A stretch of DNA of 64,000 nt from Candidatus Marithrix sp. (GTDB lineage Bacteria; Pseudomonadota; Gammaproteobacteria; Beggiatoales; Beggiatoaceae): the NCBI GenBank assembly GCA_016744775.1, contig JADGDS010000002.1, positions 62,001-126,000 of the forward strand, written 5' to 3'. Under the pieces are notes generated by a model. That model worked only from the letters and a program-made list of their open reading frames with translations. It did not search any database and had not been told where the DNA came from. The translations under genes and the position numbers were made by a program. Below, piece after piece: positions 8,915-32,674 of this stretch (within the stretch, counting starts at the first letter, position 1; every line of letters starts with the position of its first letter).

Positions 8915-8925
8915 TTTAGTCTATT

Positions 8926-8956: not shown

Positions 8957-8968
8957 GAGAGAGTAAAA

Positions 8969-9703: not shown

Positions 9704-9706
9704 TTT

Positions 9707-10918: not shown

Positions 10919-10926
10919 TTTTCTTA

Positions 10927-10946: not shown

Positions 10947-10955
10947 TATTTTATT

Positions 10956-12175: not shown

Positions 12176-12230
12176 TACAACGAATTTACGGAATAAACAA
12201 ATCCGTTTATTCCGTAAATTCGTTGTACTA
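12173..12230. terminator. 26-bp perfect stem-loop covering the stop codon
   Basis: Two exact 26-nt arms (starting TAGTACAACGAATTTACGG) flank a 6-nt AAATCC loop. The first three bases are the stop codon of the small membrane protein. No long T-run follows, so it may be a palindromic element serving as an RNA 3' end protector or terminator. The length is far above what a normal intrinsic terminator needs. Confidence 0.7.
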
Positions 12231-12314
12231 TATAGATATATATCCGCCACTACTGAGTTACAATTGGTTTTTAATACAATTAATTGGATTTTTCAGGAAA
12301 TATCCTAAACAATA

Positions 12315-13184: not shown

Positions 13185-13294
13185 GCCAAAATTCCACCTA
13201 GCTGCTATAATAATCTGATATATAATATATAACGATTAGACCATATTAATCGTCATATATTTGATTCCTTTCATAAAATTATCCATAAATAAAC

Positions 13295-14587
13295 GTGAAT
13301 AAAAAAATAATATATAGATTATTTGCTATTCTATTATTCAGTACCCTCTTATTGAGTAATAAAATTTTTGCAAGCGAAGAAGATATTTTTAAACAAGCCC
13401 TTGCTTATACTGTTAAAATTAAAACCAGAATTGACAAACCATTTCTTGGAGACGAAAAAGGCGCATTTACCGCCGCTGGATTTTTAGTTGATGTTAAGCA
13501 ACGATTAGTAATGACAAATGCACATGTAGTAGCGCGTTCTCCTTCGCATATATCGGTTGCATTTTATAATGGACATTATTATAAAGCGCGAAAACTTTAT
13601 GTTGATCCATTTTTAGACTTAGCATTATTAGAATTACCTGAAAATTCTATACCTAAAGGAATAAAAGAAGCTGAATTAGAATGTAATAATATACCAGCAG
13701 TTGGACATCCTGTTGGCGCATTAGGACATCCTTGGGGTATATTTTTTACTGGAACTCGTGGAGTAATTTCTGGTCTTACTGATAAATTTGGGGGCGAGTT
13801 TTTACAAACAGACGCTCCAATTAATAGCGGTAACTCAGGTGGACCATTAATTAGCATGAAAACCGCAAAAGTAGTAGGTATTAATACATCTAGTTTAAAT
13901 AAAAACCAAGATCAAAATACCAATTTTGCCACACCAATGAAATATGCTTGTAAAGTATTACAATTATTGCAAATAGGCAAAAATCCATCACCACCAGAAT
14001 TACCAATTCTATTTCAGCTTGATATTGATGATAATAACAAACTGATTGTGGCTAGCACCCATTTAGCTTCAGATTTAATAGCATTAGAAAACGGTGATAT
14101 AATTGACGGTTTTAAAAATGAAACTCAATTTATTCATGCGCTTAGAGGTAAATTAGATCATTTTAGTTTAACCATTACTCGTCAAAATAAAAAAATGATT
14201 CTATCAGGTAAATTCAATGTCATGCAATTAGTTACAGAACGTCAGGGCGTATTTGTATCAGGAATAGTGATTGCGCCTTGGTGGATACGTGATTGGCAAG
14301 AAGTTAATTTGCCACCTTTAGTTGTTAATAATGTAGAAGCTGGCTCTATTGGAGATGATCAAAAAATTCAAAATTGGGATAATTTAGTTGCTATTGATAG
14401 AAAACCAATGAAAAATTTAAAAGAATTATTTACTTATTTAAAAGAGGCTGAATTACAAAAGAAAAAGGTACATATTACACTTAAACGTTTTAGTGATTTA
14501 GATGATCGTTTATATGATTACTTGGAACGCCCTTTAAAAGTTGTAAATTTAAAATATTTTGGTGGTAAAAAATCCAGCCCCCCCTAA
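13295..14587 (+). CDS. Secreted S1C trypsin-like serine protease (GTG start)
   Basis: 430 residues from GTG. A signal peptide occupies residues 1-26 (LFAILLFSTLLLSNKIFA). The catalytic triad is His77 (TNAHVVA), Asp108 (FLDLALLEL) and Ser181 (NSGNSGGPL). This gives a DegP-like chymotrypsin domain at about residues 35-225. The remaining 200 residues contain PDZ-like stretches (LENGDIIDGF and WDNLVAIDRKPMKNLKEL) but no strong GLGF motif. A role in periplasmic protein quality control or processing is likely. The last residues (SSPP) and the stop come from the C/G-tract repeat at 14576, so the native C-terminus has been altered by it. Confidence 0.88.
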   Translation: MNKKIIYRLFAILLFSTLLLSNKIFASEEDIFKQALAYTVKIKTRIDKPFLGDEKGAFTAAGFLVDVKQRLVMTNAHVVARSPSHISVAFYNGHYYKARKLYVDPFLDLALLELPENSIPKGIKEAELECNNIPAVGHPVGALGHPWGIFFTGTRGVISGLTDKFGGEFLQTDAPINSGNSGGPLISMKTAKVVGINTSSLNKNQDQNTNFATPMKYACKVLQLLQIGKNPSPPELPILFQLDIDDNNKLIVASTHLASDLIALENGDIIDGFKNETQFIHALRGKLDHFSLTITRQNKKMILSGKFNVMQLVTERQGVFVSGIVIAPWWIRDWQEVNLPPLVVNNVEAGSIGDDQKIQNWDNLVAIDRKPMKNLKELFTYLKEAELQKKKVHITLKRFSDLDDRLYDYLERPLKVVNLKYFGGKKSSPP

Positions 14588-15882: not shown

Positions 15883-16116
15883 ATGACACTTAAAAGAAAA
15901 TTTGTATTTGAACATACAGTAGCACATCATTTATATGAGTTATCAATTATAGAAAATAAGTCAATGAATGCTTTAATACGAGATATGATAGAAGAGCGTT
16001 ATGAAAAGCTAAAAAAACAAAAAAGACTTGAGAATTTTTATAGTGGTATCGGATTATCTACTGGGTTAATCGGAAATACTTCTGTTCAGGAAATTAAGGC
16101 AAATAGAAATGTATAA
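15883..16116 (+). CDS. Putative ribbon-helix-helix antitoxin
   Basis: 77 residues: a short basic N-terminal strand (LKRKFVFEHTVAHHLYELSI) followed by helices (NKSMNALIRDMIEERYEKLKKQ). This is the pattern of ribbon-helix-helix DNA-binding antitoxins. It overlaps the start of the PIN-domain gene by 8 nt, the usual antitoxin-toxin arrangement, and would bind its own promoter and neutralise the toxin. The pair lies between exact 26-bp repeats. The family call depends mostly on size, helix pattern and partner. Confidence 0.65.
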   Translation: MTLKRKFVFEHTVAHHLYELSIIENKSMNALIRDMIEERYEKLKKQKRLENFYSGIGLSTGLIGNTSVQEIKANRNV

Positions 16117-16540
16117 AAACATCTTTTTGGATGCAAATATTCTACTTGATTATGCTGATAAAGATAGAATATTTCATGATGTTAGTACAAAATGTATTGA
16201 ATATTGTTTAAAACAAAATATAGACTTATATACAAGTTGCGATTTAATTACTACGATTTATTATGTAGTATCAAAACAAAACAAAATTAAGGCATTGGAA
16301 GAAGTGCAAAGGATTAATAATTTTTGTAATGTTATTGAATTTTCAAATACTGATATTGAGAAAACCTGTAATTTAATGTTACAAGATTCAGATTACCAAG
16401 ATTTAGAAGATACCGTACAATATCTTTTAGCCAAGAAAAGTAAATGTGACTTAATTGTATCAAATGATGAAAACTTTATATCAAAAAGTATCAAATTAAT
16501 TTCTTCATCTGATTTTTGTAATGAGTATAACCTGCTATAG
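16109..16540 (+). CDS. PIN-domain toxin (VapC-like RNase)
   Basis: 143 residues. The PIN signature starts the protein (NIFLDANILLDYADKDR, Asp8 and Asp13), with further acidic residues at LEDTVQYLLAKKSKCDLIVSNDENF (Glu/Asp of the Mg2+ site). It ends with the conserved S-x-D-F element. Such proteins are Mg2+-dependent RNases, often cutting tRNA or rRNA, held in check by the antitoxin encoded upstream. The start codon overlaps the antitoxin end by 8 nt. It is complete and low in GC. Confidence 0.85.
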   Translation: MYKNIFLDANILLDYADKDRIFHDVSTKCIEYCLKQNIDLYTSCDLITTIYYVVSKQNKIKALEEVQRINNFCNVIEFSNTDIEKTCNLMLQDSDYQDLEDTVQYLLAKKSKCDLIVSNDENFISKSIKLISSSDFCNEYNLL

Positions 16541-17879: not shown

Positions 17880-20243
17880 ATGCAAGACTATTTATGGCAT
17901 ATACGATTAAAATTGCTAGGTTTTTATGAAGAATATCTTCAGATGGTCTGGCATTATAAACTAAGCTTAGGCATATATAACCCAAAGTTTATAACTGAAA
18001 TATCAGTTTCTGAAAGATTTAAACCCCTGTTTAAATTTTTATATTTTTTGGTTCTGTTTCTCGAAGTATTGCTAGTATTACTCACATTGTTGCTATGGCG
18101 TAGAGTTGTCTTAGTAATTGCACTAGTTTTTGCTGTCATTGGAATATTTATTTATACTTACATAATCAGTGCTAATTATTTGATCTTTGAAGATTATCGC
18201 ATGGCTCATCAAAGATTTCATGGCACCGGTGTTTATGATCAAACCGATAAATTCTTAGGCATTATACCGGCGCAATTAGATGTTGAAAGTGCAGAACAAG
18301 ATCATAAAAGTTTATATGTTACTGAGGTTCCGGATGCTTGGTGGGAAGTGCTGAAGGCTTTAGAGGATCGACATATTGATGATCGTAGCCGCTCATGGGC
18401 TGGAATTGATGTTTTTGCTTTAGCTCAACGTAGTTTGGGATTTTTAGGCGGTGATGATTCTAAAGGTGCATCATCATTAACAATGATGCTGATTCGTTCT
18501 ATGCGTCATGAAAGTGCTAATCCTAATGATTCTAAATTTAAAAAATTTCGACGTAAATTCACAGAATTATTGCACGCGCCGATTTTATTTAAAAATTTAT
18601 ATCCTCATGATTTAAAAATTTGGTTAGCCATGCACGTTCCATTAGTAAATGGCGCACCGGGTTCTAAAATGGGAGCGGCTCTTTATGGAATTGGTATCAC
18701 CGCTCGTATCGTATTTGGTAAAGCACCCAAAGATTTGACTGTAGCTGAACAAGCTATGTTAGCCGCCGCTTTTAAAAGACCAATTTTATTAGCTCCTTTA
18801 AATGATGCAGCAGCTCAAAAAATGGCGAAAAAACGTTGGGAATATTTAAAAGACCGTGCTAAAAAAGGCATTAAAATCGCCTACCCAAACCAAGAATTAA
18901 CGGCTATTGATGAATTGAAATTCCCTTTTCAACCATATAGCCCAGTTAGAGTGGCAAACTTATTACCAAAGGATGAACTGCAAAAATTTGGCATTTTGGC
19001 TAATCCTTATAGACGCAGTTTATTTTTTGTACGTGGAGAAATGATTCAAGCAATTGGAGAATTGCAAGAACAGTATGGTATGAAATGGCGCGATAAAGTT
19101 TATGCTATACATTTAAACACCAATACTGTTGATAACGTTAAATTTAAACGCAAAGTCGAAAAAACCTTAAAAAGCATAGAAACCAACCTAAAAATAGAAC
19201 AACGTTTAGCACTAAATTTATTACCAAATAAAAAAGATGAAATGGCGCAAGTAGTTTTAGCTTTAGCAAATGCTGATGGTAAATTATTACGTTACTATTC
19301 TAATTCTCAGGATACTATTTATTCTGGCGAACAATCAGAACGTAAAGATGGAAAATATAATATAGACAATGAAACACGCCAAGTTGCTTCAATAGGAAAA
19401 CTAGCAGCGGCAGTGTTTTTAGGAGCGGCAGCAGATAATGCTAAAAAACCAACTTATTGTAATAAAAGGATTAATGGTGTACATAACCCGGGACCATATG
19501 GTAGTCCAAAAGGATTAAAAAACTGTTCAGTAAGATTCTCCAATTATAGCCCCACTATGGTTTTTGGACGTTCATTGAATTTACCTCTAATTAATAGACT
19601 AAAAACAATTAAAAAACAGAAATTAGCTTTATTACTAAACAACTTTGGCTTAAAATTCAATGCTAAAGATAAAACCCCTTTAAGCACAGCAATAACTTTA
19701 GGCTTAGTCAATGCTTCACCTCATACTCTTCATGGAATAATACATAGTATTACCACTGGTATTATTGCGACTCCGACTGCTTTGCAACCAAGCATAGTGC
19801 AACAAGTCCAAATTATTACAGAAGAAGGTGTAATTGCAAAACAACAAATGCCGATTATGAATAATCCTGATCTGAGTGGAATAGGAGATTATTTTGCGAA
19901 ACCGAATACTAGTGAATTTGTAAAAACAGTATTAAGTGCATCATTAAAAGGCGGTAATATGCGCGGTACTCTAAAATCTTTAGAAGATTGGACACCTGAA
20001 CAAAACAGTCAGGTACAATTACATATTGCCAAAACAGGTACCTCAACTTTAGGAAAAACATCCAAAAATTGGATTTCGCCAATATTGGATAAATATATAG
20101 TCGGAGGCATAGTTTTTAGGAGTAAACTTTACAGCTATTTTGTATTAGTCGGACATTCTGATCCTAAAAAACCACTTGGTAAGCGGATTAGTGGTAATCA
20201 TTTATCACCGTTGGTTCGGGTTATGTTGGATAGTTTAAAATAA
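17880..20243 (+). CDS. Divergent class A penicillin-binding protein (transglycosylase/transpeptidase)
   Basis: 787 residues. There is an N-terminal cytoplasmic stretch, then two hydrophobic segments at about residues 55-100 (FLYFLVLFLEVLLVLLTLLLW and LVIALVFAVIGIFIYTYII). A GT51-like domain follows with the catalytic Glu in ALEDRHIDDR (Glu162) and KGASSLTMMLIR in place of the usual G-G-S-T-I-T-Q-Q. The C-terminal half has the acyl-serine motif SIGK (Ser504) and the KTG triad (AKTGTST, about 718), so both activities are plausible. The sequence is far from the PBP1a/1b norm. Its last 80 bases are repeated twice downstream, around 27146 and 29803. Confidence 0.82.
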   Translation: MQDYLWHIRLKLLGFYEEYLQMVWHYKLSLGIYNPKFITEISVSERFKPLFKFLYFLVLFLEVLLVLLTLLLWRRVVLVIALVFAVIGIFIYTYIISANYLIFEDYRMAHQRFHGTGVYDQTDKFLGIIPAQLDVESAEQDHKSLYVTEVPDAWWEVLKALEDRHIDDRSRSWAGIDVFALAQRSLGFLGGDDSKGASSLTMMLIRSMRHESANPNDSKFKKFRRKFTELLHAPILFKNLYPHDLKIWLAMHVPLVNGAPGSKMGAALYGIGITARIVFGKAPKDLTVAEQAMLAAAFKRPILLAPLNDAAAQKMAKKRWEYLKDRAKKGIKIAYPNQELTAIDELKFPFQPYSPVRVANLLPKDELQKFGILANPYRRSLFFVRGEMIQAIGELQEQYGMKWRDKVYAIHLNTNTVDNVKFKRKVEKTLKSIETNLKIEQRLALNLLPNKKDEMAQVVLALANADGKLLRYYSNSQDTIYSGEQSERKDGKYNIDNETRQVASIGKLAAAVFLGAAADNAKKPTYCNKRINGVHNPGPYGSPKGLKNCSVRFSNYSPTMVFGRSLNLPLINRLKTIKKQKLALLLNNFGLKFNAKDKTPLSTAITLGLVNASPHTLHGIIHSITTGIIATPTALQPSIVQQVQIITEEGVIAKQQMPIMNNPDLSGIGDYFAKPNTSEFVKTVLSASLKGGNMRGTLKSLEDWTPEQNSQVQLHIAKTGTSTLGKTSKNWISPILDKYIVGGIVFRSKLYSYFVLVGHSDPKKPLGKRISGNHLSPLVRVMLDSLK

Positions 20244-20248
20244 AGTAC
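20166..20248. repeat. PBP 3'-end repeat, copy A (parent copy)
   Basis: The 83 bases that end the PBP gene and run five bases past its stop are found again at 29803-29885 with three differences. The first 54 are also at 27146-27199 with one difference. This copy is the intact gene end, so it is the likely source. Confidence 0.95.
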
Positions 20249-20290
20249 AAGATAATAAACATATTTTGTGCGCGTTTATACTTTTTATGG

Positions 20291-20330
20291 TATAATATTC
20301 CTATAAAAAATATAGGAATATAGGAATATT
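20291..20330 (+). promoter_or_regulatory. TATAAT box overlapping an inverted repeat before the aldolase cluster
   Basis: TATAAT at 20291-20296 overlaps the arm AATATTCCTATA (20294-20305), which pairs exactly with TATAGGAATATT (20319-20330). TATAGGAA is in addition repeated in tandem. The -35 element is weak (TTGTGC, 19 bases upstream). A -10 box covered by a palindrome suggests operator control of the five-gene cluster that starts at 20345. The stretch TACTTTTTATG before the box is also found at 29883-29893. Confidence 0.5.
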
Positions 20331-20344
20331 AGTTCTGCAAGTAG

Positions 20345-21124
20345 ATGAAAAATAATAAAATTATTGCACTTAAAAATAAAATAACAAAATTACAACAAGA
20401 TCATGGTTTACTATCTTTAAAGGCAGGAACTGAATGGGAAGATATGGATTATCAGGAAATTGCTTGTTTGCAGGCATTAGGTGAAGCTAAACTGCCCTTG
20501 ATGGTGAAAATAGCAGGTCCAGAAGCAAAAGTAGATTTACGTAATATGCAAGCCATTGGTGTCACTGGTATTTTAGCTCCAATGATTGAATCAGAATATG
20601 CTTTAGAAAAATTTATCACCATTGTTACTGAGCATTATGAAGGGGCGAAAGAACCGCCGTTATTGGCGATTAATCTGGAAACGATTCAGGCTTATCATCA
20701 GTTAGATGATATTCTCAATAGTAGATTTTTTGATCTTGTTGACTTGGTGGTGATTGGGCGTTTGGATTTGTCATTGTCGATGCATATTAAGGATGTTGAC
20801 CACACGGATGTAGCCAAAGTCACGCAAGACATTGTTAATAAAGTGAGAGCGAAAGGCAAATCTATTTCAATTGGTGGTTTTGTCAATCCCTGCAGTGCAG
20901 CAGTTATTAAAAATACATTTAATGCAAATCGTTTGAATACCATTCATACCTTGTTTGATTTGGATAAAACCCAAGATATAGCTGCCGCTGTTTGGAAAGC
21001 GATTGAATTTGAAATGGCTTTTTATGAGTATTTGCAAGAAATCAATCCAAATCGACACGATTTTTATCAAACCCGTATTGAAACCAGTCAAAGTAAATTG
21101 GATAAAGCGGTTGAATTAAACTGA
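20345..21124 (+). CDS. HpcH/HpaI-family aldolase
   Basis: 259 residues. Landmarks of the class II (metal-dependent) HpcH/HpaI/citrate lyase fold are MVKIAGPEAKVDLRNMQ, GVTGILAPMIESEYALEKF, LAINLETIQAY and VVIGRLDLSLS. Members cleave or form C-C bonds of 2-oxo-4-hydroxy acids with pyruvate or acetyl groups. The branch with KI-G-EA and V-GR-DLS is often found in cell-surface or specialised metabolite clusters. It is the first gene of a five-gene run (next ATG overlaps the stop by 1 nt). A decayed copy of its first 29 codons lies at 27218-27304. The substrate is unknown. Confidence 0.85.
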   Translation: MKNNKIIALKNKITKLQQDHGLLSLKAGTEWEDMDYQEIACLQALGEAKLPLMVKIAGPEAKVDLRNMQAIGVTGILAPMIESEYALEKFITIVTEHYEGAKEPPLLAINLETIQAYHQLDDILNSRFFDLVDLVVIGRLDLSLSMHIKDVDHTDVAKVTQDIVNKVRAKGKSISIGGFVNPCSAAVIKNTFNANRLNTIHTLFDLDKTQDIAAAVWKAIEFEMAFYEYLQEINPNRHDFYQTRIETSQSKLDKAVELN

Positions 21125-22101
21125 TGAGTACAAAAAATCGTTTATTCCAAGATCCCTATAGTGTTTTAGATGCCACTTTGCGCGATGCAGGTTACATGAA
21201 TAACTGGGCATTTTCGCGTGAAGAAATTTTTAATGTGGTCGGTGGTGTAGCAAAAACAGGTGCTGAAGCGGTTGAAGTGGGTTATATCAGCGATAAACCC
21301 AACCGTACACCCGCCGCTTGTTGTCGCGCAGAACTGTTACATGAATTACATGAGCATACAGATAATGCCATTAATTTAGCGGTGATGGTTAGCTTGACAG
21401 AACAAAATATTGATAACTTGTTTGCCAGTCGTCATGAACAAATTGATTTAGTCCGTATTCCCAGCACCTTTGAAGAAATCCCCATTGCTTTACGTTTTGC
21501 AGAAATGGCTAAACGCTATGAACTTGCCTGTAGCTTTAATTTAGTAAATATTTCAACCTTAAGTGACCAGCAATTAATTGACATTGTCCATGAAGTTCAG
21601 CAAACAGGTTTGGTCGATATTTTTTATTTGGCGGATTCACGCGGTGCTTGTCGCCCTGAAGAAGTCAGCCATATTGTTGAAGTTGTACGCCAACATTGGG
21701 ATGGTTTGTTGGGGTTTCATGCTCATGACAATACAGGCTTTGCCACAGTTAATCCCTTAATGGCATTGGATGCAGGTTGTCAGATTATTGATGGCACAGT
21801 CAATGGTTTGGGCTTGGGCAGTGGCAATACTAATTTAGCCCATGCTTTGTCTTTAGTGGCACAACGGACAGATAAAAATTACAACCACGCGCCTTTGGAT
21901 GCGTTAAGACAGGCAATTACTGTCCCGATGTCTGCTGAAAAAAGTTATTTATATTATTTAGTCGGCGCGAAAAATTTTGCCCAACTTTGGGTTGAACCGT
22001 TGATTGAACGCTATGGCAACGACACTGCCCGTTATCTACAACGCATTCCGCGTAAAGCTTATACCCAAATTGAACAAATCATTCAAGAGATTGAGGCATG
22101 A
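21124..22101 (+). CDS. HMGL-like (DRE-TIM) aldolase/synthase
   Basis: 325 residues starting with the family hallmark DATLRDAGYMNNWAFS (metal and substrate site, residues 14-29). LLGFHAHDNTGFATVNPLMAL (the metal-binding H-x-H near residue 198) and GLGLGSGNTNLA follow. This is the 4-hydroxy-2-oxovalerate aldolase-like branch of the DRE-TIM lyases. It joins or cleaves 2-oxo acids. Directly coupled to a second aldolase upstream (1-nt overlap) and to a methyltransferase downstream (4-nt ATGA overlap), it probably acts in one short pathway. No acylating aldehyde dehydrogenase is present, so the classic meta-cleavage role is unlikely. Confidence 0.87.
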   Translation: MSTKNRLFQDPYSVLDATLRDAGYMNNWAFSREEIFNVVGGVAKTGAEAVEVGYISDKPNRTPAACCRAELLHELHEHTDNAINLAVMVSLTEQNIDNLFASRHEQIDLVRIPSTFEEIPIALRFAEMAKRYELACSFNLVNISTLSDQQLIDIVHEVQQTGLVDIFYLADSRGACRPEEVSHIVEVVRQHWDGLLGFHAHDNTGFATVNPLMALDAGCQIIDGTVNGLGLGSGNTNLAHALSLVAQRTDKNYNHAPLDALRQAITVPMSAEKSYLYYLVGAKNFAQLWVEPLIERYGNDTARYLQRIPRKAYTQIEQIIQEIEA

Positions 22102-22736
22102 GCGATTTAAAATTATCCGACCTTACCCAAACGGATTTAAATAAACTGGATGTGGTTGAACGTTATACCCATTTTGCCCCTGTTTATAATCAATCTGTCA
22201 ATGATTGGGGATATCAGTGTTACCGTACTGCCACTGATGCCTTGCAACATTATGTGGCAACCGAACAAGCAATTTTAGATGCAGGTTGTGGTACAGGTTT
22301 GGTTGGACAAGCATTAAAAGAACGGGGTTATCATCAAGTCAGCGGTATTGATATTTCAGCCGAAATGCTCAATCAGGCTGAAACAGTAGGGGCTTATCAA
22401 CAACTGTTATTACAAGATTTAAGTAAAACACCTTATCCATTTGAAACCAATCAATTTAGTGCGATTACTTGTGTTGGTGTATTTTCTTTGATTGCCAACC
22501 CAAGCCATGTATTACAGGAATTTTGCCGTTTAGTACGTCCGCAAGGCTATTTGGTTTTTACCCAGCAAGAAACTTTATTTGAACAATATGGTTATGCAGA
22601 AATTTTGCAGGATTTTGAACAGCGTGGTGAATTACGTTGTGAAAGTATCAGTGAGCCTGTGGCTTATTTACCCCACCGTGCAGGACATCAAGACCGCAAA
22701 GTCATTTATTGTGTTTATCAGGTGATAAAGGATTAA
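22098..22736 (+). CDS. SAM-dependent class I methyltransferase
   Basis: 212 residues. SAM-binding motif I is AILDAGCGTGLVGQAL (about residues 57-72), and the acidic end of strand 2 is HQVSGIDISAEML. FSAITCVGVFSLI and VRPQGYLVFTQQE complete the methyltransferase 11/25-type core. The start overlaps the preceding aldolase gene by 4 nt and the next start follows after 4 nt, so it is translationally coupled in the cluster. The acceptor is probably the product of the aldolases, but that is an inference from operon order. Confidence 0.87.
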   Translation: MSDLKLSDLTQTDLNKLDVVERYTHFAPVYNQSVNDWGYQCYRTATDALQHYVATEQAILDAGCGTGLVGQALKERGYHQVSGIDISAEMLNQAETVGAYQQLLLQDLSKTPYPFETNQFSAITCVGVFSLIANPSHVLQEFCRLVRPQGYLVFTQQETLFEQYGYAEILQDFEQRGELRCESISEPVAYLPHRAGHQDRKVIYCVYQVIKD

Positions 22737-22740
22737 TTCC

Positions 22741-23697
22741 ATGAAAAAAAAATGTTTGATTTTAAATAACCGCGAACCCATTGCCGAAAACCATTTAGAT
22801 AATTTAAGTCAACAACTTGACATTGTTTGGTATCAAAAAACAGGCACAGATTTTTCTTTAGCAGAAGCGGTTAAAACCAACCCAGATACCCGCATCATCA
22901 TCACCACTTACATGGATTTAACTGCTGATTATTTACAGCAACTGCCCCAACTAGAAGCCATCATTGCTACCACCATTTCTACCCATTTTATTGATTCTAA
23001 TTATTGTCGTCAGCACGATATTCAAATTTTTAACAGTGAAAACTATACAGGGGCATCGGTGGCAGAACACGCGGTGGCACTGATGATGTCAGCAATGCGA
23101 AAAATTCCCGCCATTGACAGCCAAATTCGACAAGGCAATGTGGATTGTTTTGATTATGCAGGCACTGAACTGGCAGGAAAAACCGTGGGCATTATCGGTT
23201 TTGGTAATATTGGCAGTTATGTTGCACAATTATTAAGTGGTTTTAACATGCAATTACAATATTACAATCGTTCTGCTAAAAATAGTGCTATAGCCGATGC
23301 GGTGAGTTTAGAAACCCTGTTAAAAACATCCGATATGGTTTTTTTAACCACACCGTTAAACCATGATTCGCATTACATCATCAATGCCAATGCACTCAAA
23401 CAAATGAAAACTTCTGCATTGTTGGTCAACATTTCACCTGATGATGTCATGGACAGGGTTGCAGTACAATCAGCTTTAGAAAAAGGCGAAATTGGCGGTG
23501 TGGCACTGGATTTATTGCTTGTCGATGGTTTCCTCAATACCCCCAATACGGTGTTGACCTCTCGTCGCGCATGGTTTACGAGTGAATGCTTTAATCGCCG
23601 TATTAATATGTGGAAAACTACTTTATATAATTACTTGCAAGGACAGCAACAGACAAGCCTCAACAAGCTTGATTTTGTTCCTCTATCTAAAAAATAA
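22741..23697 (+). CDS. D-2-hydroxyacid dehydrogenase-like protein with an altered catalytic site
   Basis: 318 residues with the family's NAD fold: TVGIIGFGNIGSYVAQLL (about residue 150) and FLTTPLNHDSHYIINANAL. The family's catalytic Arg (N-x-x-R-G), Glu (D-V-F-E) and His (T-P-H) are not there. The aligned segments read LVNISPDDV, VALDLLLVDGF and LTSRRAWFT. NAD binding therefore seems kept while the classic chemistry is doubtful; it may be a sensor, a different oxidoreductase or a dead enzyme. It is the fourth gene of the cluster, 4 nt behind the methyltransferase gene. Confidence 0.82.
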   Translation: MKKKCLILNNREPIAENHLDNLSQQLDIVWYQKTGTDFSLAEAVKTNPDTRIIITTYMDLTADYLQQLPQLEAIIATTISTHFIDSNYCRQHDIQIFNSENYTGASVAEHAVALMMSAMRKIPAIDSQIRQGNVDCFDYAGTELAGKTVGIIGFGNIGSYVAQLLSGFNMQLQYYNRSAKNSAIADAVSLETLLKTSDMVFLTTPLNHDSHYIINANALKQMKTSALLVNISPDDVMDRVAVQSALEKGEIGGVALDLLLVDGFLNTPNTVLTSRRAWFTSECFNRRINMWKTTLYNYLQGQQQTSLNKLDFVPLSKK

Positions 23698-23727
23698 CCA
23701 ATACAAGATGACTGGTAATTTTAACTT

Positions 23728-24849
23728 ATGCCAAAAAACATCAACCACATTAGTATAAAAGTAATTACTGACAATGACTTATGTATAAGTTGTGGGGCAT
23801 GTTCTCATATTTGCCCTTATAAAATAATTGATATGATTTTTAATAAAAATCAATCTAAATGGGAACCTTTTGTTAGGGAAGAAAGTATTTGTAACAATCG
23901 CTGTAATGGAAAAGAATTATGTTTATCAGTTTGTCCTTCATATAATGTAGATTATATGCAAATTGCCAACAGCCATGAAAACAAAATGCTCGGTAAAATA
24001 CAAAATGTATATACAGGTTATGCGACAGATGCAACTATTCGTTACAGCAGTTCTTCAGGGGGATTTATTTACCCATTATGTCAGTCATTAATTGAAAATG
24101 GCACCATTAATGGGATTATTGCGATGACCCATGATGGTGGCATGGAATATACCCCAAAAATAATTAATGAACTTGAACAAATGCCACGTTCTGTATATCA
24201 CAATACAAACTTTGAAAATGCGCTTAATCTAATTAAAAATTATGATGGAAGATTTTTATTAATTGCACTGCCTTGCCATATTACATCAATAGAACTCTTT
24301 CTTAATAAGAAAAAAAATAAAAAGTTAAAATCTAAAATTTACGCGAAAATTGCACTTATTTGTGGTTATTTACATGACCGAGCAAACGTTGAAGCCTTTG
24401 CTTCTTATCACGCATTTGACGTAAAAGAAGCAAGCTATAGAGGTAAAGGACGCGCTTTACGCATAAGATTAAATAACGATAAAAAAACTATAGAATACAA
24501 CACATTTTATCCAAAAACCCTTACACAAGCTATTAATAATAGGATGATGTTTGATAATTTTTTACCCCAACAAGGGTGCATTAATTGTGTTGACCACCTT
24601 GGTTATTGTGCTGATTTAGTTGTAGGTGATGCTTGGTTAAAAAAATATGCTGATGATAAAATAGGTACAAGTTTACTTTTTAGTCGTACAGGATTAGGTG
24701 AAAATATTATTAAAAGTATCAAAGGATTTAATTTCTTTAAATCATCAAAACAAGAGATTATGGAATCTCAAGGTATACACTGTGCGTTAGGCGCAAGTGC
24801 AGAAGGAATTAAAGATATTCCATTAAAAATAAATGCTTTTATACCATAA
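23728..24849 (+). CDS. FrhB-like Fe-S protein (coenzyme F420 hydrogenase/dehydrogenase beta family)
   Basis: 373 residues. An N-terminal ferredoxin region (CISCGACSHICPYKI, then CNNRCNGKELCLSVCPS) is followed by FrhB N- and C-terminal domains (YSSSSGGFIYPLCQSL, LIALPCHITSIEL, GCINCVDHLGYCADLVVGDAW). Bacterial members without F420 are common in polysaccharide and surface-glycan clusters as putative reductases. It follows the dehydrogenase-like gene after 30 nt. The frame stays open for 85 more codons behind its TAA (24850-25107), so the protein may be a truncated form. Confidence 0.82.
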   Translation: MPKNINHISIKVITDNDLCISCGACSHICPYKIIDMIFNKNQSKWEPFVREESICNNRCNGKELCLSVCPSYNVDYMQIANSHENKMLGKIQNVYTGYATDATIRYSSSSGGFIYPLCQSLIENGTINGIIAMTHDGGMEYTPKIINELEQMPRSVYHNTNFENALNLIKNYDGRFLLIALPCHITSIELFLNKKKNKKLKSKIYAKIALICGYLHDRANVEAFASYHAFDVKEASYRGKGRALRIRLNNDKKTIEYNTFYPKTLTQAINNRMMFDNFLPQQGCINCVDHLGYCADLVVGDAWLKKYADDKIGTSLLFSRTGLGENIIKSIKGFNFFKSSKQEIMESQGIHCALGASAEGIKDIPLKINAFIP

Positions 24850-25107
24850 AAAACAAGAACTAATAATCCAAAAGACATTGTAAAACATAAATTTCGCTTC
24901 AAAGACAAGATAAAAGTAAAATATGTAAAAAAACTATTACATCAGAAAAAATTTAAACGTGCAAAAATTTTATTTGTTTTACTTGAAATTCCTTATTTTA
25001 TTAGGTATTTATTAAAAAGATATCCTGCTGATGGTTTTTTTCCGCCTTTTGATTTTCTTCCAGGATTGGAACAAAAAAGTCAGTCATCAAAAAAAGATAA
25101 AAAATAA
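24850..25107 (+). pseudogene. In-frame basic tail cut off from the FrhB-like gene by a TAA stop
   Basis: Directly behind the TAA at 24847-24849 the same frame runs open for 85 codons to TAA at 25105. It encodes a Lys/Arg-rich, plausible protein sequence (KYVKKLLHQKKFKRAKILFV, then a YFIRYLLKRYP and PFDFLPGLE stretch). There is no ATG, GTG or good ribosome site, so it is not an independent gene. The simplest reading is a nonsense mutation near the C-terminus of an originally about 459-residue protein; readthrough is an alternative. Confidence 0.6.
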
Positions 25108-25161
25108 GAATAATTGTTTGAGGTTTGATATATCTTTACTATAGATTAATTGGTAATTATT

Positions 25162-27147
25162 ATGCTAATAGAACTTGGAATTATTTTAAGTACTTATACT
25201 AGTTTTCGTCTTTTAGAAAAGAAAAATGAAAAAAAATATAAAATCAGGAAAAACAAGTTTTTACTAGATAGAAAAAATAAAGCATTAACTAAAAAAACTA
25301 ATAAAGAGATAATAAAATCAGAAAAAAACATAGCGGTTCCAGCCAAAAAAGAGCTAAATATTGCCTTCATCAGTTTAGGTTCAGCTATATTACAACCTAT
25401 TTTTTTACCACATTTGGCATTAATCAATGCTATTTTACTAAGTTACAGCAGTTATCCCTATCTAAAAGGAGCTGAAAAGGCATTAAAAAACAAAAAATTT
25501 AGTAATGATGTGCTGGGTGCAGGTTGGACAATATTTGCTGTTGGCAGTGGACAATATTTTGCTGCCGCATTAGGTAATGTTGTTTACCATATCGGTACTG
25601 ATTTTATTGAAAAAACCCGTGACCAATCCCGTCAATCCATTGTCCATATTTTTGACCGACAAGATCGCCAAGTTTGGTTATTAAAAAATAATATTGAAAT
25701 TGAAATCCCACTGTCAAAGGTATTACTTAACGACATTGTGATTGTTAATAGTGGTGAAATGATTCCTGTTGATGGAAAAATTGTGTATGGTGTAGCACGT
25801 ATTGATGAACACATTCTAACGGGTGAATCACAAACTGTAGAAAAATCACAAGATGAACCAGTATTTGCATCAACTTTGTTAATCAGTGGCACAATTCATA
25901 TTCAAGTTGAAAAAGCAGGCAACGACACCGCTGTTGCAAAGATTGAAAAAGTACTCAATCAAACCACTGATTTCAAAAGCACCTTGCAACTTAAAGGCGA
26001 AGAATGGGCAGATAAATCAGCCCCTTATTTATTAGGGACAGCAGGATTAACCGCCGTAACTTTTGGTTTTGCACCTGCTGCCGCTGTTTTAGTTGCCAAC
26101 TTTGGTTATCAAATAAGAATGGTTACGCCGTTAAGTACCTTGCGTCATCTATCTAAAGCAAGCAAAGCAGGTATTTTAATCAAAGACGGGCGTTCCTTGG
26201 AGCGATTAAATGATATTGACACCATTTTATTTGATAAAACAGGTACATTAACCGAGGAACAACCGCAAGTGGGTGAAATTATCAGTTGGGGAAATTATAG
26301 TTCAGAAGAAATTTTAAGATGTGCTGCCACTGCCGAAGTGAAATTAAAACACCCAATTGCCAAAGCGATTTTACAAGCCTATGAGACTTACAATAATCCC
26401 CTAGATGAAATTGATGATGCCCATTATGAAATCGGTTTTGGTACTAAAATACAGCTAAATAAGCAAACCATACGGGTGGGCAGTTTGCGTTTCATGCAAA
26501 ATGAAGGTTTGCAATGGGATGACGAAAAACAAGCCACACTTGAACCTATTTATCAACAAGGACATTCTATCGTCATGGTTGGCATTGATAATAAAATTGC
26601 AGGTGCAATTGAAATTAAACCCACCATTCGCTCTGAAATACCCCAATTAATTAAACAACTCAAAAAACGGGGTATAAAACATCTGATGATTGTTTCAGGC
26701 GACCACAGCAAACCCACTCATCAACTCGCCGAAAAATTAGGTATTCCCGAATATTCTGCTGAAGTTCTACCGGAAAATAAAGCGACAATTGTCAGTGAGT
26801 TACAACAACAAGGACGTAAAGTGTGTTTTATCGGTGATGGCATCAACGATACCATCGCCATGAAACAAGCCGATGTTTCTATTTCCTTACAAGGTGCATC
26901 AACTATTGCCACCGATACAGCGGATGTTATCTTAATGAATGGTGACTTAACTCACCTTAATTCACTGTTTAATATTGCCGACAGCACCAACAGTATCATG
27001 AAAAAAAGTGCCGCAATGGTTATTTTACCAGCAGGTCTTATTTTAATAGGCAGTATTGGTTTTCAAATGGGTTTATTAGTGGCGGTTGTTATAAAACAAA
27101 GTTTTTTAGGGGCAAATATACTGTATGTACTGAAACGTTCTAAATAA
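25162..27147 (+). CDS. P1B-like P-type ATPase without a CPC motif (first of two)
   Basis: 661 residues from ATG at 25162 (an in-frame TTG lies four codons upstream). The catalytic parts are complete: TGES (about residue 220), DKTGTLT (about 358), the P1B-type HP dipeptide (LKHPIAKA) and GDGINDT. However, the helix that in heavy-metal pumps carries CPC, SPC or TPC reads QIRMVTPLSTLRHL, with no cysteine. No N-terminal metal-binding domain or CXXC is present; the N-terminus is one helix plus a Lys-rich stretch. The transported ion is therefore unclear. It is followed by a repeat copy and by a second, related ATPase. Confidence 0.85.
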   Translation: MLIELGIILSTYTSFRLLEKKNEKKYKIRKNKFLLDRKNKALTKKTNKEIIKSEKNIAVPAKKELNIAFISLGSAILQPIFLPHLALINAILLSYSSYPYLKGAEKALKNKKFSNDVLGAGWTIFAVGSGQYFAAALGNVVYHIGTDFIEKTRDQSRQSIVHIFDRQDRQVWLLKNNIEIEIPLSKVLLNDIVIVNSGEMIPVDGKIVYGVARIDEHILTGESQTVEKSQDEPVFASTLLISGTIHIQVEKAGNDTAVAKIEKVLNQTTDFKSTLQLKGEEWADKSAPYLLGTAGLTAVTFGFAPAAAVLVANFGYQIRMVTPLSTLRHLSKASKAGILIKDGRSLERLNDIDTILFDKTGTLTEEQPQVGEIISWGNYSSEEILRCAATAEVKLKHPIAKAILQAYETYNNPLDEIDDAHYEIGFGTKIQLNKQTIRVGSLRFMQNEGLQWDDEKQATLEPIYQQGHSIVMVGIDNKIAGAIEIKPTIRSEIPQLIKQLKKRGIKHLMIVSGDHSKPTHQLAEKLGIPEYSAEVLPENKATIVSELQQQGRKVCFIGDGINDTIAMKQADVSISLQGASTIATDTADVILMNGDLTHLNSLFNIADSTNSIMKKSAAMVILPAGLILIGSIGFQMGLLVAVVIKQSFLGANILYVLKRSK

Positions 27148-27199
27148 AACCACTTGGTAAGCGGATTAGTGGTAATAATTTATCACCGTTGGTTCGGGA
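27146..27199. repeat. PBP 3'-end repeat, copy B
   Basis: 54 bases matching 20167-20220 with one mismatch, overlapping the TAA of the first ATPase gene. It is followed after about 20 bases by a decayed start of the aldolase gene, reproducing the order PBP end then aldolase start seen at 20.2-20.4 kb. Confidence 0.92.
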
Positions 27200-27217
27200 T
27201 TTTACGAAGTATAGGAA

Positions 27218-27304
27218 ATGATAAACAATAAAATTGTTGCAAATAAACTCACTAAATTACAACAAAATCATGGTTTATGATCTTTAAAGGCAGTTCCTGA
27301 AGCA
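27218..27304 (+). pseudogene. Remnant of the HpcH/HpaI aldolase 5' end
   Basis: 29 codons from ATG read MINNKIVANKLTKLQQNHGL, stop, SLKAVPEA. They align with the start of the aldolase at 20345 (MKNNKIIALKNKITKLQQDH, then GLLSLKAGTE). An in-frame TGA and loss of the rest make it non-functional. It proves duplication of the PBP-aldolase junction. Confidence 0.88.
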
Positions 27305-27371
27305 ATTTTAATTTGTATGAAACATAAACTAGCAAATCAAAGAGACTTTACTGATTGGCAGTGCCATTTTT

Positions 27372-29271
27372 ATGGGTTTGAAACAGAAACGCCAGCTTAA
27401 AACTTTATCTACTAATGTATTAGTACCACGAAAAACACAACTCGATAATAAGACAAAGCGTTATTTTCAATTAAGTACGGTTGCGGTTGGTATTACGGGA
27501 TTGACACTTATCACACCCATTTTACAACCTGTTAGTCTTGCTTTGTTAGCTTACCTTTGCCTTCCTATTTTTAAGTCCACTTGGGTACAATGGCATAAAA
27601 AAAATAGGGCATGACATGTTAGTAAGCCTATTATTTGCGATAGGCTTTTTTTCTGGTCAATTATTTGCATTAGCCATCGCCTTATTTTTTTACCATCTAG
27701 GTAAAAAAATACTGGCTCAAACGCAAAATCATTCTAAAGCCATGTTAAGTGATTTATTTAATCAACGCATTGATAAAGTTTGGCTTCTTCGCGATCAAGT
27801 AGAATTGGAAGTGCCTTTAGAGACGGTGCGTGAGCATGATTGTGTTGTGGTTAATACGGGCGATATGATACCGATTGATGGAGTGGTAATCGAAGGAATG
27901 TCGCTGGTTGATCAGCAAACCTTAACAGGTGAATCACAACCAGTAGAAAAATTACCACAACATCAGGTATTTGCTGCAACCCAAGTCATTAGCGGACGTA
28001 TTGTGATACGAGTTGAAAAAACAGGGACAGAAACAACAGCAACCAAAATTGCTGAAATGCTCAATCGTACTGCTGATTATAAAGTCGCTTTATTAAGCAA
28101 AGGTGAAACACAAGCCAATCAAATTGCCTTACCATTGATTGCTTTATCGGCAATAACAATGCATTTTTTGGGATTAGTGGCTGCCAGTGGTGTATTGAAT
28201 GCTACTTTTGGCAATCGCTTACAACTCACTGCACCGTTAAGTGTTTTGAACCACCTTAATCTTGCCATGCAAAAAGGTATTATGGTGAAAGATGGACGCG
28301 CCTTGGAAACCTTATCAAAAGTTGATACCATCTTATTTGATAAAACAGGTACATTAACCGCAGAGCAGCCAATAGTAAGCCATATTATTGTTTGTGCTAA
28401 CGATTATCAAGCAGAACAATTGTTAGCACAAGCTGCTGCTGCTGAATCAAAACTAGCCCATCCAATTGCTAAAGCTATTGTTGCCAAAGCACATTCACAG
28501 GGGTTGGTTTTACCGACGATTGATGAATCTGATTTCGAAATAGGTTTAGGTGTTAGCGTCACTATTGACAATAAAATTGTCCGCGTAGGCAGCCTACGTT
28601 TTATGCAACAAAATGAGATTGCAATACCAATAACAATACAACAACAAATGGAAACAGCCTACACAATAGGCAATTCCATCATATTTGTTGCCGCAGAAAA
28701 TGAACTGAAAGGCATCTTAGAAATTGAACCAGCTATTCGCCCTGAAATAAAAGATATGATTGTAAAATTACGCCAACGCTGGATAAAACATCTGGCAATT
28801 GTTTCTGGTGACCATGAAAAATCCACCAAAAAACTGGCAGAACAATTGGAAATGGATGATTATTTTGCTGAAGTGATGCCAGAAGATAAGGCGAAAATTG
28901 TGTCAGGTTTACAGCAACAAGGAGGTACCGTTTGTTTTATTGGCGATGGTATTAATGATGCGATAGCAATTAAACAGGCTGATGTGTCTATCTCTCTTGA
29001 AGGTGCAACCACTATCGCCCGTGATTTAGCCCAAATTGTTTTCATGGATGGTCGTTTAAAACATTTATATCTGCTATTCGATATAGCGACTAGTCTGGAA
29101 AAAAACTTGCAAGACACCGTAAAAACCTTATATACCCCTGTTTTGATCAATTTTGGGGGTACTTTATTTTTTGGCTTTGGCTTAATGATCACTGTGATTA
29201 TTAATAATAGCTCATTATTATTGGCCTTAAGAAAAACCAAACAACATAATTTAGGAAAAATAGATTCATGA
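27372..29271 (+). pseudogene. Second P1B-like ATPase, split by a frameshift at an A8 run
   Basis: The first 80 codons (27372-27614) encode the leading membrane part (YFQLSTVAVGITGLTLITPI) and run into TGA. A second frame (27616-29271, 551 residues) continues with the rest: TGES, DKTGTLT, SKLAHPIAKA and GDGINDA. The switch point is an A8 run (27597-27604). Removing one A joins the frames and gives KKIGHDMLVSLLFAIGFFSG, which aligns residue for residue with KKFSNDVLGAGWTIFAVGSG of the first ATPase. As in that protein, the metal helix lacks CPC (RLQLTAPLSVLNHL). It could be a pseudogene, a sequencing indel or a product of slippage. Confidence 0.85.
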
Positions 29272-29759
29272 TTTCACCCGCTTTTATAGGAAAAATTGCG
29301 ATTCTAGCAGAAACGTATCATGGAGAAAAGCGCGTCTCTATTACACCCCAAATAGCAGAAAGATTAATCAAATCAGGATTAAAAGTTTATGTGGAATTTA
29401 ATGCTGGGATTGCGGCTGGATTTAGCAATGAAGATTATATAGCGAACGGACTAAAATAAAAGTAGAACAGTTGCTCAAAGGGACTTTTATTAAATTACCC
29501 AACGAAGAAATAACAACAGATACTGAATCTGTTTTAAAACAACAACAAACAATTATCAAACAGTGTTGTTATGGATCTTACTGCCAGTGTCGGTGGTAAT
29601 ACAGCAATCACCGTTTTTAATAAAAATGTGTGTACTGCCAATGGCGTGTGGGTTTGTAATAAAAGTAATTATCCAAGTGCAGAAGCTAAACAAGCAAGCA
29701 TAGCTTATGCTAAATGCCTCGCTGAAATTATAAAATCACACGTGAAGTTGCTTCAATAG
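29268..29759 (+). pseudogene. Remnant of NAD(P) transhydrogenase alpha / alanine dehydrogenase-like gene
   Basis: The first 63 codons, starting at ATG overlapping the ATPase stop, read AILAETYHGEKRVSITPQIA and SGLKVYVEFNAGIAAGFSNE, the N-terminus of PntA. They end at a stop at 29459. At about 29565 a later part reappears: VVMDLTASVGGNTAITVFNK and SNYPSAEAKQASIAYAKCLA, matching the conserved NAD-domain segment near the end of that domain. The NAD-binding core in between is deleted. The gene cannot make a working enzyme. Confidence 0.8.
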
Positions 29760-29885
29760 CAAAAACAACAAATGCCAATTATTAGTCGGAGATTCTGATC
29801 AAAAAAAACCACTTGGTAAGCGGATTAGTGGTAATAATTTATCACCGTTGGTTAGGATTATGTTGGATAGTTTAAAATAAAGTAC
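29735..29885 (+). pseudogene. Mosaic remnant of the PBP gene ending in 3'-end repeat copy C
   Basis: Three separate pieces of the PBP gene at 17880 are joined here in the original order. They match the SIGK region (AGTTGCTTCAATAG, compare 19383), a later piece (AACAACAAATGCC, compare 19840) and the last about 100 bases (29780-29885). The final 83 bases differ from copy A at three positions. It is a duplicate of the PBP 3' half with internal deletions. Confidence 0.85.
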
Positions 29886-29894
29886 TTTTTATGC

Positions 29895-29900
29895 TATAAT
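29895..29900 (+). promoter_or_regulatory. Possible -10 box before the secreted protein gene
   Basis: TATAAT preceded by TACTTTTTATGC, the same context as the box at 20291 upstream of the aldolase cluster. No good -35 element is visible (TTAAAA at 17 bases). It seems to be the original promoter downstream of the PBP gene end. Confidence 0.4.
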
Positions 29901-29949
29901 ATGTCTGTGAATATCGTTTATTTAACTATTAAATATATCAGGAAATTTT

Positions 29950-30462
29950 ATGAAGCGCGTAATAATTATATTTTCTTTATTTTTTTCATTAATGTCGGCA
30001 GCTATGTCTTGGGAAAATACTCCCAAGTATAAGGATTCTAAAGTTTATAAAATATATAAAGGGAAAAATCATTCACTGAGAATCGATGGCTTTGGAAGGA
30101 TGTATAAAACCAGATTAAGATATGCAATTAAACATGGAAAGCCTAGTTTTGCAGGTAAATATATTGTTACTGGCTGGGGATGTGGTACCAGTGGTTGTAA
30201 TACAGGAGCAGTAATAAATGCAAAAACTGGAAAGGCAACTCCTTGGCCTGTTGCATTGTCATCTGTTTATCCACTTAAGCCAGAATTTGAAAATGAAGAT
30301 GGACAAGAACACTTATACAGATTAAACAGTCGCTTAATGATATTTGCAGGAAATTTAGACGGGGCTGCAAAAGGAAGTGGAGATGATTCTGTTGAATTTT
30401 ATGATTTTAAAAATGGCAGGTTTATATTTTTAAAGTCAAAGCCATATGGAAAACATAGGTAA
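29950..30462 (+). CDS. Secreted protein with GWGCGTSGC motif, unknown function
   Basis: 170 residues with a signal peptide (VIIIFSLFFSLMSAAMSW). The mature part contains PSFAGKYIVTGWGCGTSGCN and later GAVINAKTGKATPWP and LIFAGNLDG-like segments (here LMIFAGNLDG). Similar small periplasmic proteins with a W-G-C-G-x-x-C core are common in proteobacteria without an assigned role. The paired cysteines suggest a disulfide in the periplasm. It stands alone behind a PBP-end repeat and before a GTAGGGTCGG repeat. Confidence 0.75.
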   Translation: MKRVIIIFSLFFSLMSAAMSWENTPKYKDSKVYKIYKGKNHSLRIDGFGRMYKTRLRYAIKHGKPSFAGKYIVTGWGCGTSGCNTGAVINAKTGKATPWPVALSSVYPLKPEFENEDGQEHLYRLNSRLMIFAGNLDGAAKGSGDDSVEFYDFKNGRFIFLKSKPYGKHR

Positions 30463-30475
30463 ATATTAAAGTATC

Positions 30476-30548
30476 TGTAGGGTCGGTGGAGTTTACGGAA
30501 CCGATCAATAGCTTTGACCCAAAATGGTCGGTTATCACCAACCCTACA
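30476..30548. repeat. TGTAGGGTCGGT inverted repeat
   Basis: The outer arms TGTAGGGTCGGT and ACCAACCCTACA form an imperfect palindrome, with TTTACGGAACCGAT inside. The same words recur at 32128-32153, 32497-32514, 32640-32674 and 57828-57855, always outside intact genes. This is a small dispersed repeat family. Confidence 0.8.
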
Positions 30549-31188
30549 AGGCTTATCTTTTTATCCTTGACTATATACTATCCATATAGTCAAGGATAGA
30601 GAAGTATTTTAAATAAGGTAAACCAAAATATGAAATCAATAATATTAACAATAACTTTATTACCCTTAGCCGCATATGCTTTTGGTCCATCGGGACCACC
30701 GGGTGATCCTTCTACTGCTATGTATAGTATTCCTGATGTTTGTCAGCGTTTAGAGTCTGGTGCTGCTGGTGAGAAGCGGGTTTTTCGTGGTCCAAGTTCT
30801 GCTCCGGGTACTAGAAGTGGTTGTAATTTGAATGAGTTAATGGATAAGGCTCCTGCTATTGATGATTCTAATGGTGCTGTTCCGGGTCATGTTATTGGTA
30901 GTAGGACTTATTGGGGTTTAGTTAATGGTAATTGGGGTTTGCAAACTGGTACTATGCCTGTTCATGGTGCTAAGACTTATGTTCCTCAAGCGGCTGATCA
31001 GGGTATTGCCGCTGGTTATTATCAGGCTGGTGTTGTGAAAGGTGATGCTAATTTAAAGCCTGAAAATATTCGCGCTGGTGTTACTATTTTTGGTGTAGTT
31101 GGTACTTATACTCCAGAACCTGCAACTCCAACTGCTGGCTCTACTTTTCGTGATACTTTGAAGGATGGTAGCTCTGGTCCAGAAATGG

Positions 31189-31231
31189 TTTCGAGGCTAA
31201 AGTTTTTTGAAAAAAAACTTTAGCCTCGAAA
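31189..31231. repeat. Palindromic element inserted in the FGE gene
   Basis: TTTCGAGGCTAAAGTTTTTT and AAAAAAACTTTAGCCTCGAAA face each other around a G. It interrupts what would otherwise read GPEMV-MIPAGSF, the standard start of an FGE domain. The insert length is not a multiple of three and shifts the frame. The words GAGGCTTTAGCCTCG occur in the long repeats at 51016 and 58370. Confidence 0.88.
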
Positions 31232-31778
31232 TGATTCCTGCTGGTTCTTTTAGAATGGGTGATATTCAAGGTGGTGGTGATAGTGATGAACAGCCTGTGC
31301 ATTCTGTTTCTGTAGGGCAGTTTGCTATGGGGAAATTTGAAGTAACCTTTGCTGAATATGATAAGTTTGCTGATGCTACTGGTAGAAGTAAGCCTTCTGA
31401 TAGTGGTTGGGGGCGCGGTAATCGTCCGGTGATTAATGTTTCTTGGAATGATGCGACTGCATATACAGAATGGCTAAGTAGTCAAACTGGTAAACAATAT
31501 CGTTTGCCTACTGAGGCGGAGTGGGAATATGCAGCTCGTGCTGGTACAGAAACCAAATATTGGTGGGGTAATGATATTGGTACAAATAAGGCTAATTGTT
31601 ATGGTGATGATTGTGGAGATAGTTTTGAATATACTTCAGATGTAGGGTATTTTGCAGATAATAAATTTTATTTATATTGTACTCAATATAATTAATATAA
31701 GTGGACTTGCTCTGAATATGAAGGTAAATATAACGGTAAATAAAAAGTGTGTTTAGATAAAAATAGCAATAAAACCCG

Positions 31779-31893
31779 AGTGTTGCGTGGCGGATCGTGG
31801 GACAACGACCCGGGGGGCATTCGTGCCGCCGACCGCAGCAGGAATACCGCAACGACTACCTCGGCTTCCGTGTCGTTCTTGCGGCTGCGTGGA
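31779..31893 (+). other. GC-rich variable-repeat-like end of the FGE gene
   Basis: Base composition jumps from AT-rich to strongly GC-rich exactly over the codons for RVLRGGSWDNDPGGIRAADR and the terminal YRNDYLGFRVVLAAA. This is the segment where DGR variable repeats sit in FGE/CLec target proteins, and it is rich in the Asp/Asn/Gly/Tyr codons that adenine mutagenesis gives. No reverse transcriptase or template repeat was found in the window. Confidence 0.5.
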
Positions 31894-31940
31894 CTAATTA
31901 GCCCTTGGCCCTTTTGCCCTTGTGCCCTTTTTAAGTTTTT

Positions 31941-31979
31941 ATCCTACATTCATAATGTTGAATGTAGGATTTATTTTTT
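31941..31979 (+). terminator. Intrinsic terminator after the FGE pseudogene
   Basis: ATCCTACATTCA (31941-31952) pairs with TGAATGTAGGAT (31959-31970), a 12-bp stem with a 6-nt loop, followed by TTATTTTTT. This has the classic intrinsic terminator form. Confidence 0.75.
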
Positions 31980-31999
31980 GTACTTAAAACAATCAAAAG

Positions 32000-32120
32000 G
32001 CTCGAACCTTGATTTTTAAGGATTAGCCTGATTACCTTGATTTGTTTAAATCAAGCTAATCAAGGAAATCAAGTTAAATCAAGGTTTAAGTAGTTAAAAA
32101 AAGGCTCTAACCTTGATTTA
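32000..32120. repeat. Cluster of AATCAAGG/CCTTGATT words
   Basis: CCTTGATTT appears at 32007, 32035 and 32111, and AATCAAG(G) several times between 32049 and 32095 in the opposite sense, so the region can fold in many ways. Another CCTTGATTTT is near 32288. No gene is visible here. From 32121 to 32316 only a GGTTCCGTAAACTCC repeat (32128-32153) and AT-rich DNA are seen. Confidence 0.7.
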
Positions 32121-32316
32121 AAATAATCGGTTCCGTAAACTCCATCGATCCTACAGCGTCTAATTGTCATCCCGACGAAAGGAGGGATCTTATGCTTTGT
32201 AAATACTAACAATGACAAAGCTTGGCTTTGAACTCCTGATATTCTGTAAATTCTGATTCAGACAATTTTACTTAATTTTTTTTAAACCTTGATTTTATTC
32301 ACACGATCTCACATAA

Positions 32317-32339
32317 TCTCACATTGATTCAATGTGAGA
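32317..32339. repeat. Small inverted repeat TCTCACATTG
   Basis: TCTCACATTG and CAATGTGAGA form a 10-bp stem with an ATT loop; a partial third copy (CTCACATAAT) lies just before. It is followed by AAAAATTATGG, which is not a terminator T-run on the plus strand. Confidence 0.6.
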
Positions 32340-32530
32340 AAAATTATGGATTGGAATAATATTATCTGAGTTTTATCCCTGTTTATATGCAATCCCTGTA
32401 GTGGAAAGCGAAGTCAATTATAAATAAGTTATTGAATAAATTTAATTGTCTTTAGGCCAAAATCTTTATCTGAAAAACTATACAAGCAAAATGGTTGGTT
32501 ATCACCGACCCTACAGCTCATGTTACGCAT

Positions 32531-32616
32531 TGTAGGTTGGGCTGACGAAAGGAAGCCCAACTAATCGTGGAATTGTGGTGAAATTGTTGGGCTTCCTTTC
32601 GTCAGCCCAACCTACA
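32531..32616. mobile_element. MITE-like element with 31-bp perfect terminal inverted repeats
   Basis: A 31-nt arm starting TGTAGGTTGGGCTGACGAAA is exactly complementary to 32586-32616, around a 24-nt spacer. It encodes nothing. The GTAGGTTGGGCTGACG word with flanking AT sequence resembles non-autonomous palindromic elements common in large sulfur bacteria and cyanobacteria. No transposase is present nearby. Confidence 0.75.
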
Positions 32617-32639
32617 TAATATATCACAGATAGAAGCCT

Positions 32640-32674
32640 TGTAGGGTCGGTTCCGTAAACTCCACCGATCCTAC
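32640..32674. repeat. TGTAGGGTCGG repeat copy
   Basis: TGTAGGGTCGGTTCCGTAAA and the following CTCCACCGATCCTACT form an inverted repeat of the same family as 30476-30548. The gap 32617-32740 holds otherwise only AT-rich DNA and the leader of the caspase-like pseudogene. Confidence 0.75.

Follow-up and report, generated by a model that had tools for sequence, protein, structure and literature searches.

The window analyzed here is a stretch of 64,000 nt from the forward strand of Candidatus Marithrix sp. contig JADGDS010000002.1, and coordinates are positions in this window. The source genome (G000) comprises 3.09 Mb; the same-genus comparison was made with genome G001 alone, and the further relatives compared were G017, G018, G022 and G032. 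An intact PBP gene (17880..20243; Transgly, PF00912, E 1.5e-15) encodes a protein with an 88% identical counterpart in G001 (C40) and is the source of the repeats described below. Downstream of it lies a metabolic cluster encoding an HpcH/HpaI-type aldolase (20345..21124; PF03328; 62% identity to G022 C191), an HMGL-like enzyme (21124..22101; PF00682; 66% to G022), a SAM methyltransferase (22098..22736; PF08241; 63% to G022), a D-2-hydroxyacid dehydrogenase (22741..23697; PF02826; 67% to G022) and an FrhB/FdhB-like iron-sulfur protein (23728..24849; PF04432, PF04422). Two P-type ATPase genes and a PntA/alanine-dehydrogenase-like pseudogene follow, with partial copies of the PBP 3' end at the stop codon of the first ATPase gene and behind the pseudogene. 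The first gene 3' of the repeats (29950..30462) encodes a small protein of no known family, which has no Pfam or NCBIfam match and only weak homologues in two other relatives. The genes and the copies of the PBP end all lie on the + strand.

G022 keeps the aldolase, HMGL-like enzyme, methyltransferase and 2-hydroxyacid dehydrogenase genes together with an ATPase gene, at 62-67% identity for the enzymes; the G022 cluster showed no counterpart of the FrhB/FdhB-like protein. On contig C3 of G000, a fused remnant (L074:3961-4329) joins an aldolase start to an HMGL end and is followed by a TnpB-like fragment and by cluster genes encoding a dioxygenase, an MR-type enzyme, an ATPase and a flavoprotein. 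The C3 locus is read as a second, decayed copy of the cluster. Combined, the C3 remnant and the window cluster cover most of the G022 cluster.

The surroundings of the PBP gene are poorly conserved. In G001, the part of the window from 1 to 14572 is in the opposite orientation relative to PBP, GspF-SbcD is found on another contig, PBP has other genes on either side, and rnfC comes after a different gene set. PBP thus has new neighbors on both sides compared with G001, and the right flank to rnfC differs as well; 3' of the G001 PBP are a different gene and an NRPS, not the gene at 29950. A related membrane-protein gene adjoins PBP in G001, G018, G017 and G032 and lies about 190 kb away in G000. 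These comparisons show that the PBP neighborhood is a mosaic with several synteny breaks, not a single island in a conserved site. The term genomic island, used in the initial annotation, is therefore too simple, and the empty site predicted there was not found: G001, the single same-genus genome, has no clean empty site.

Other features were noted on either side of the region. Between GspF and SbcD (15883-16540) lie two small genes that look like an antitoxin and a PIN-type toxin; in G001, GspF and SbcD are directly adjacent, without this pair. Repeated elements, probably REP- or MITE-like, occur in the interval 30475-32674; they include TGTAGGGTCGGTGGAGTTTACGGAACCGATC and a perfect 31-nt inverted repeat (32531/32586), and G000, G001 and G018 contain dozens of partial matches to them.

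Copies of the PBP 3' end

A search of the whole genome with the end of the PBP gene (20166-20248) found exactly three places, including the query itself; these are the three copies described in the initial annotation. Copy A (20143..20248) is the end of the intact gene. Copy C (29745..29885) is a PBP pseudogene made of three joined pieces (19381-19400, 19838-19858 and 20143-20248); its part at 29803-29885 matched the query at 96% (E 1.5e-33), and the A/C alignment extends over 106 nt at 94% (20143-20248 against 29780-29885), rather than the 83 nt first given. Copy B (27146..27198) begins at the stop codon of ATPase1 and is 98% identical to the PBP end (E 3.9e-20), with one mismatch in 53 nt, not 54. 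The PBP-end repeats are not due to chance. The A-C divergence (6/106) argues against an assembly duplicate; all copies are located on a single 536 kb contig.

Both additional copies extend across the gene junction. The two discontinuous PBP pieces previously noted 5' of copy C were located at 29745-29764 (matching 19381-19400) and 29762-29782 (matching 19838-19858), each at 95%. Beyond the stop codon, copy C continues into the PBP-aldolase spacer: 29883..29902 corresponds to 20279..20298, the piece with TGnTATAAT upstream of the aldolase gene. Copy B is followed by the decayed start of a second aldolase copy with an internal stop codon (27218..27301), also in agreement with the earlier description; 27218-27241 corresponds to 20345-20368 and 27241-27293 to 20374-20426 (about 88%), and the translation reads MINNKIVANKLTKLQQNHGL*SLKA against MKNNKIIALKNKITKLQQDHGLLSLKA. 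The duplicated stretch therefore comprises PBP end plus spacer in C and PBP end plus aldolase start in B. Since B continues into the aldolase start and C holds PBP interior and spacer, the repeated unit was larger than an attachment core, and the copies are best read as remnants of a duplicated PBP-aldolase junction.

Copy C has lost about 437, 284 and 30 nt in three internal deletions, and at each of its three joints the adjoining pieces overlap by about 3 nt; the breakpoints of the unit have been lost from the copies by deletion. The 131-nt interval separating copy B from ATPase2 has no match elsewhere in G000, G001, G018 or G022. The TATAAT-like box left from copy C is now part of the region upstream of the 29950 gene. 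The number of sites in a promoter scan was not above that in shuffles, so the box is no evidence of function. Two candidate features of the PBP 3' end were rejected: a 71-nt run identical to G001, considered as a conserved DNA site, ranks just second in length among such runs of the gene (P about 0.10), and an inverted repeat in the repeated core (CCACT...AGTGG) shows matching changes of both arms in G018 but is missing from PBPs of more distant genomes and is probably due to chance.

The base differences indicate a relative age. Copy A and G001 differ at seven positions over 106 nt, and C carries the base of A at all seven; A and C differ at six positions, and A carries the G001 base at all six. 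On the simplest reading, A and C parted after the split from G001 and only C changed, which makes the duplication young and places it after the lineage separated from its nearest sequenced relative. Copy B shares one derived base with copy C, a weak hint, from a single base, that B and C may be sisters. DNA comparison found a single PBP end in G001, no repeats and no island; 20250-29700 has no DNA match there beyond the PBP end and ATPase-family similarity.

Two P1B-like ATPases without a CPC motif

ATPase1 (25162..27147; PF00122, PF00702, TIGR01525) is a P1B-like P-type ATPase with the residues NFGYQIRMVTP at the position of the CPC motif. ATPase2 is split into an N-terminal part (27372..27614), recognized by tblastn to family N-termini, and a main part (27616..29271), recognized by profile matches and 58.9% identical to a protein of G018 (C5). 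The split coincides with an apparent one-base frameshift at an A8 run (27597-27604), where the G018 relative is continuous; it may be real or a sequencing error. Identity between the two ATPases is 46%. ATPase1 shares 60-61% identity with the ATPase located in the aldolase-HMGL cluster of G022, and in G018 a PntA/alanine-dehydrogenase-like gene adjoins the ATPase2 relative on its 3' side. That gene matches both ends of the window pseudogene (29292..29720; PF05222) at 49-51%; the pseudogene consists of N- and C-terminal pieces with the middle deleted, and at the DNA level G000 and G001 contain no further copy of it. Because the ATPases share only 46% identity and each is closer to a protein of a different genome, they are not products of the young PBP duplication. 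Each ATPase has its own history and partner genes, and the metabolic cluster and the two ion-pump-like ATPases look as though they came together separately.

With 397 and 388 bits, both ATPases exceed the TIGR01525 cut-off of 346 bits, and both fall far short of the cut-offs of the Cu and Zn equivalogs; their nearest structures by sequence are CopA and Cd and Zn ATPases. They retain TGES, DKTGTLT and GDGxND, and the catalytic motifs TGE, DKTGT and GDGxND are invariant in the alignment. They resemble the P1B heavy-metal P-type ATPases (TIGR01525; CopA, ZntA) in catalytic motifs and TIGR01525 score, but differ from them in that the Pfam scan found no HMA domain and the transport helix has no CPC, CPx or SPC motif, with FGY-type and other sequences instead. 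CPC is absent from every family ORF with a readable motif (62 of 63 ORFs). An AlphaFold model of ATPase1 was set aside (mean pLDDT 62; membrane parts mostly below 50).

The family is large. Up to 23 strong matches occur per genome (E up to 1e-100), and 37 of the 43 genomes of the bacterial family contain at least one, the weakest of which may be ordinary P1B pumps. This bacterial family is presumably Beggiatoaceae, judging by loci assigned to Thioploca and Thiotrichaceae. A profile search of the genome contigs placed at least four loci clearly in the family, the matches listed being mostly other P-type ATPases. The locus L069:10152-15911 contains a tandem of two family ATPases and part of a third, together with an intervening amidinotransferase-like gene, and a CPC-less family ATPase occurs in an uncultured Acidobacteriia genome (L083:8578-11818), again near a methyltransferase. 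A partial survey of the literature returned nothing on a CPC-less ATPase family in Beggiatoaceae.

Operon neighbors of the family include methyltransferases, TauD dioxygenases, MR-type enzymes, an opine-type dehydrogenase, diaminobutyrate enzymes and NRPSs, several of these enzymes being named by visual inspection of their sequences. At least 10 of 56 neighbors have a methyltransferase domain, compared with 3 to 6 of 86 control genes; the Fisher p is 0.005 to 0.04, for neighbors selected by a plain distance rule and for genomes that, being related, are not independent. Many family members have no such enzyme as a neighbor, and the association with small-molecule enzymes is suggestive only, a lead and not a result. 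It is conceivable, if somewhat doubtful, that the CPC-less ATPases are not metal pumps and form a large multi-copy P-type family that would export or serve the products of adjoining small-molecule enzymes (aldolases, methyltransferases, dioxygenases, opine-type dehydrogenase, NRPS). The more lasting interest of the locus lies in this family: relatives of metal pumps without the metal motif, present in many copies and matching the heavy-metal ATPase model.

Origin of the arrangement

The PBP ends are probably remnants of young segmental duplications of the PBP-aldolase junction, internal to the lineage and set in a much-rearranged stretch. The junction would have been duplicated after the split from the nearest sequenced relative; three copies would need at least two duplication steps, and B and C may stem from the later one. 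The additional copies, being functionless, then accumulated point changes and deletions, the latter with about 3 nt of common sequence where the pieces join. PBP, the aldolase-to-ATPase1 cluster and, save for its one-base frameshift, ATPase2 are still intact. Rearrangement would have brought the two ATPases together, each with its own partner genes. It counts against this reading that the second unit would have had to lose its other cluster genes by deletion. Because no intact second unit survives and its borders are gone, the extent of the unit and the order of the steps are no longer readable. The comparisons show the copies, their decay and relative age, their absence from G001 and the different origins of the ATPases; the number and sequence of duplications are inferred, as is the copying process, presumably ordinary tandem or ectopic duplication.

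An integration by homologous single crossover, in which DNA of a related strain carrying a PBP end and cargo recombined once or twice at the chromosomal PBP end, would leave a truncated PBP end after each cargo. The layout agrees with this, having the intact PBP first and a 5'-truncated copy after each cargo, and the cluster can evidently move, since G022 has it at a site separate from PBP and contig C3 of G000 retains a remnant of it. However, the identity of C with A at all seven A/G001 differences means that the donor must have been very close; it would also have needed the cluster already behind its PBP, and no plasmid or phage genes were seen among the ORFs. We consider this route unlikely.

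The two models of the initial annotation are less probable still. Repeated site-specific integration at the PBP 3' end, with the gene end rebuilt each time, would account for direct repeats at a gene end, as many integrative elements insert in this way. However, the ORFs of 20250-29950 include no integrase or recombinase, the copies are unequal (53-106 nt), have different flanks and carry aldolase start or PBP interior, and the stretch identical to G001 is no longer than expected by chance; such integration is very improbable here. The other model, tandem duplication followed by decay, is supported in kind, in that the junction was duplicated, but fails in deriving both ATPases from one PBP-cluster-ATPase unit. 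The order PBP end, aldolase start, ATPase does occur twice; against a whole-unit origin, the PBP copies are 94-98% identical as DNA while the ATPases are 46% identical as proteins and closer to proteins of different genomes, and the neighbors differ, with the PntA-like pseudogene only after ATPase2. Unless ATPase evolution was far more rapid than that of unselected DNA, this divergence refutes the model and leaves it next to no probability.

The repeats show an accessory region that arose through duplication on the spot, rearrangement and decay and not through a clean insertion, and they caution against taking gene-end repeats as attachment sites. The locus is similar to integrative islands at gene 3' ends in that direct gene-end repeats flank accessory genes, but differs from them in lacking a recombinase, in having unequal repeats that exceed an attachment core and in that no empty site was found. 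With bacterial segmental duplication and pseudogene decay it shares partial copies beside an intact gene, short homology at the joints and a young age; here, in contrast, three copies persist, their ends are unequal, and they are mixed with genes of other origin.
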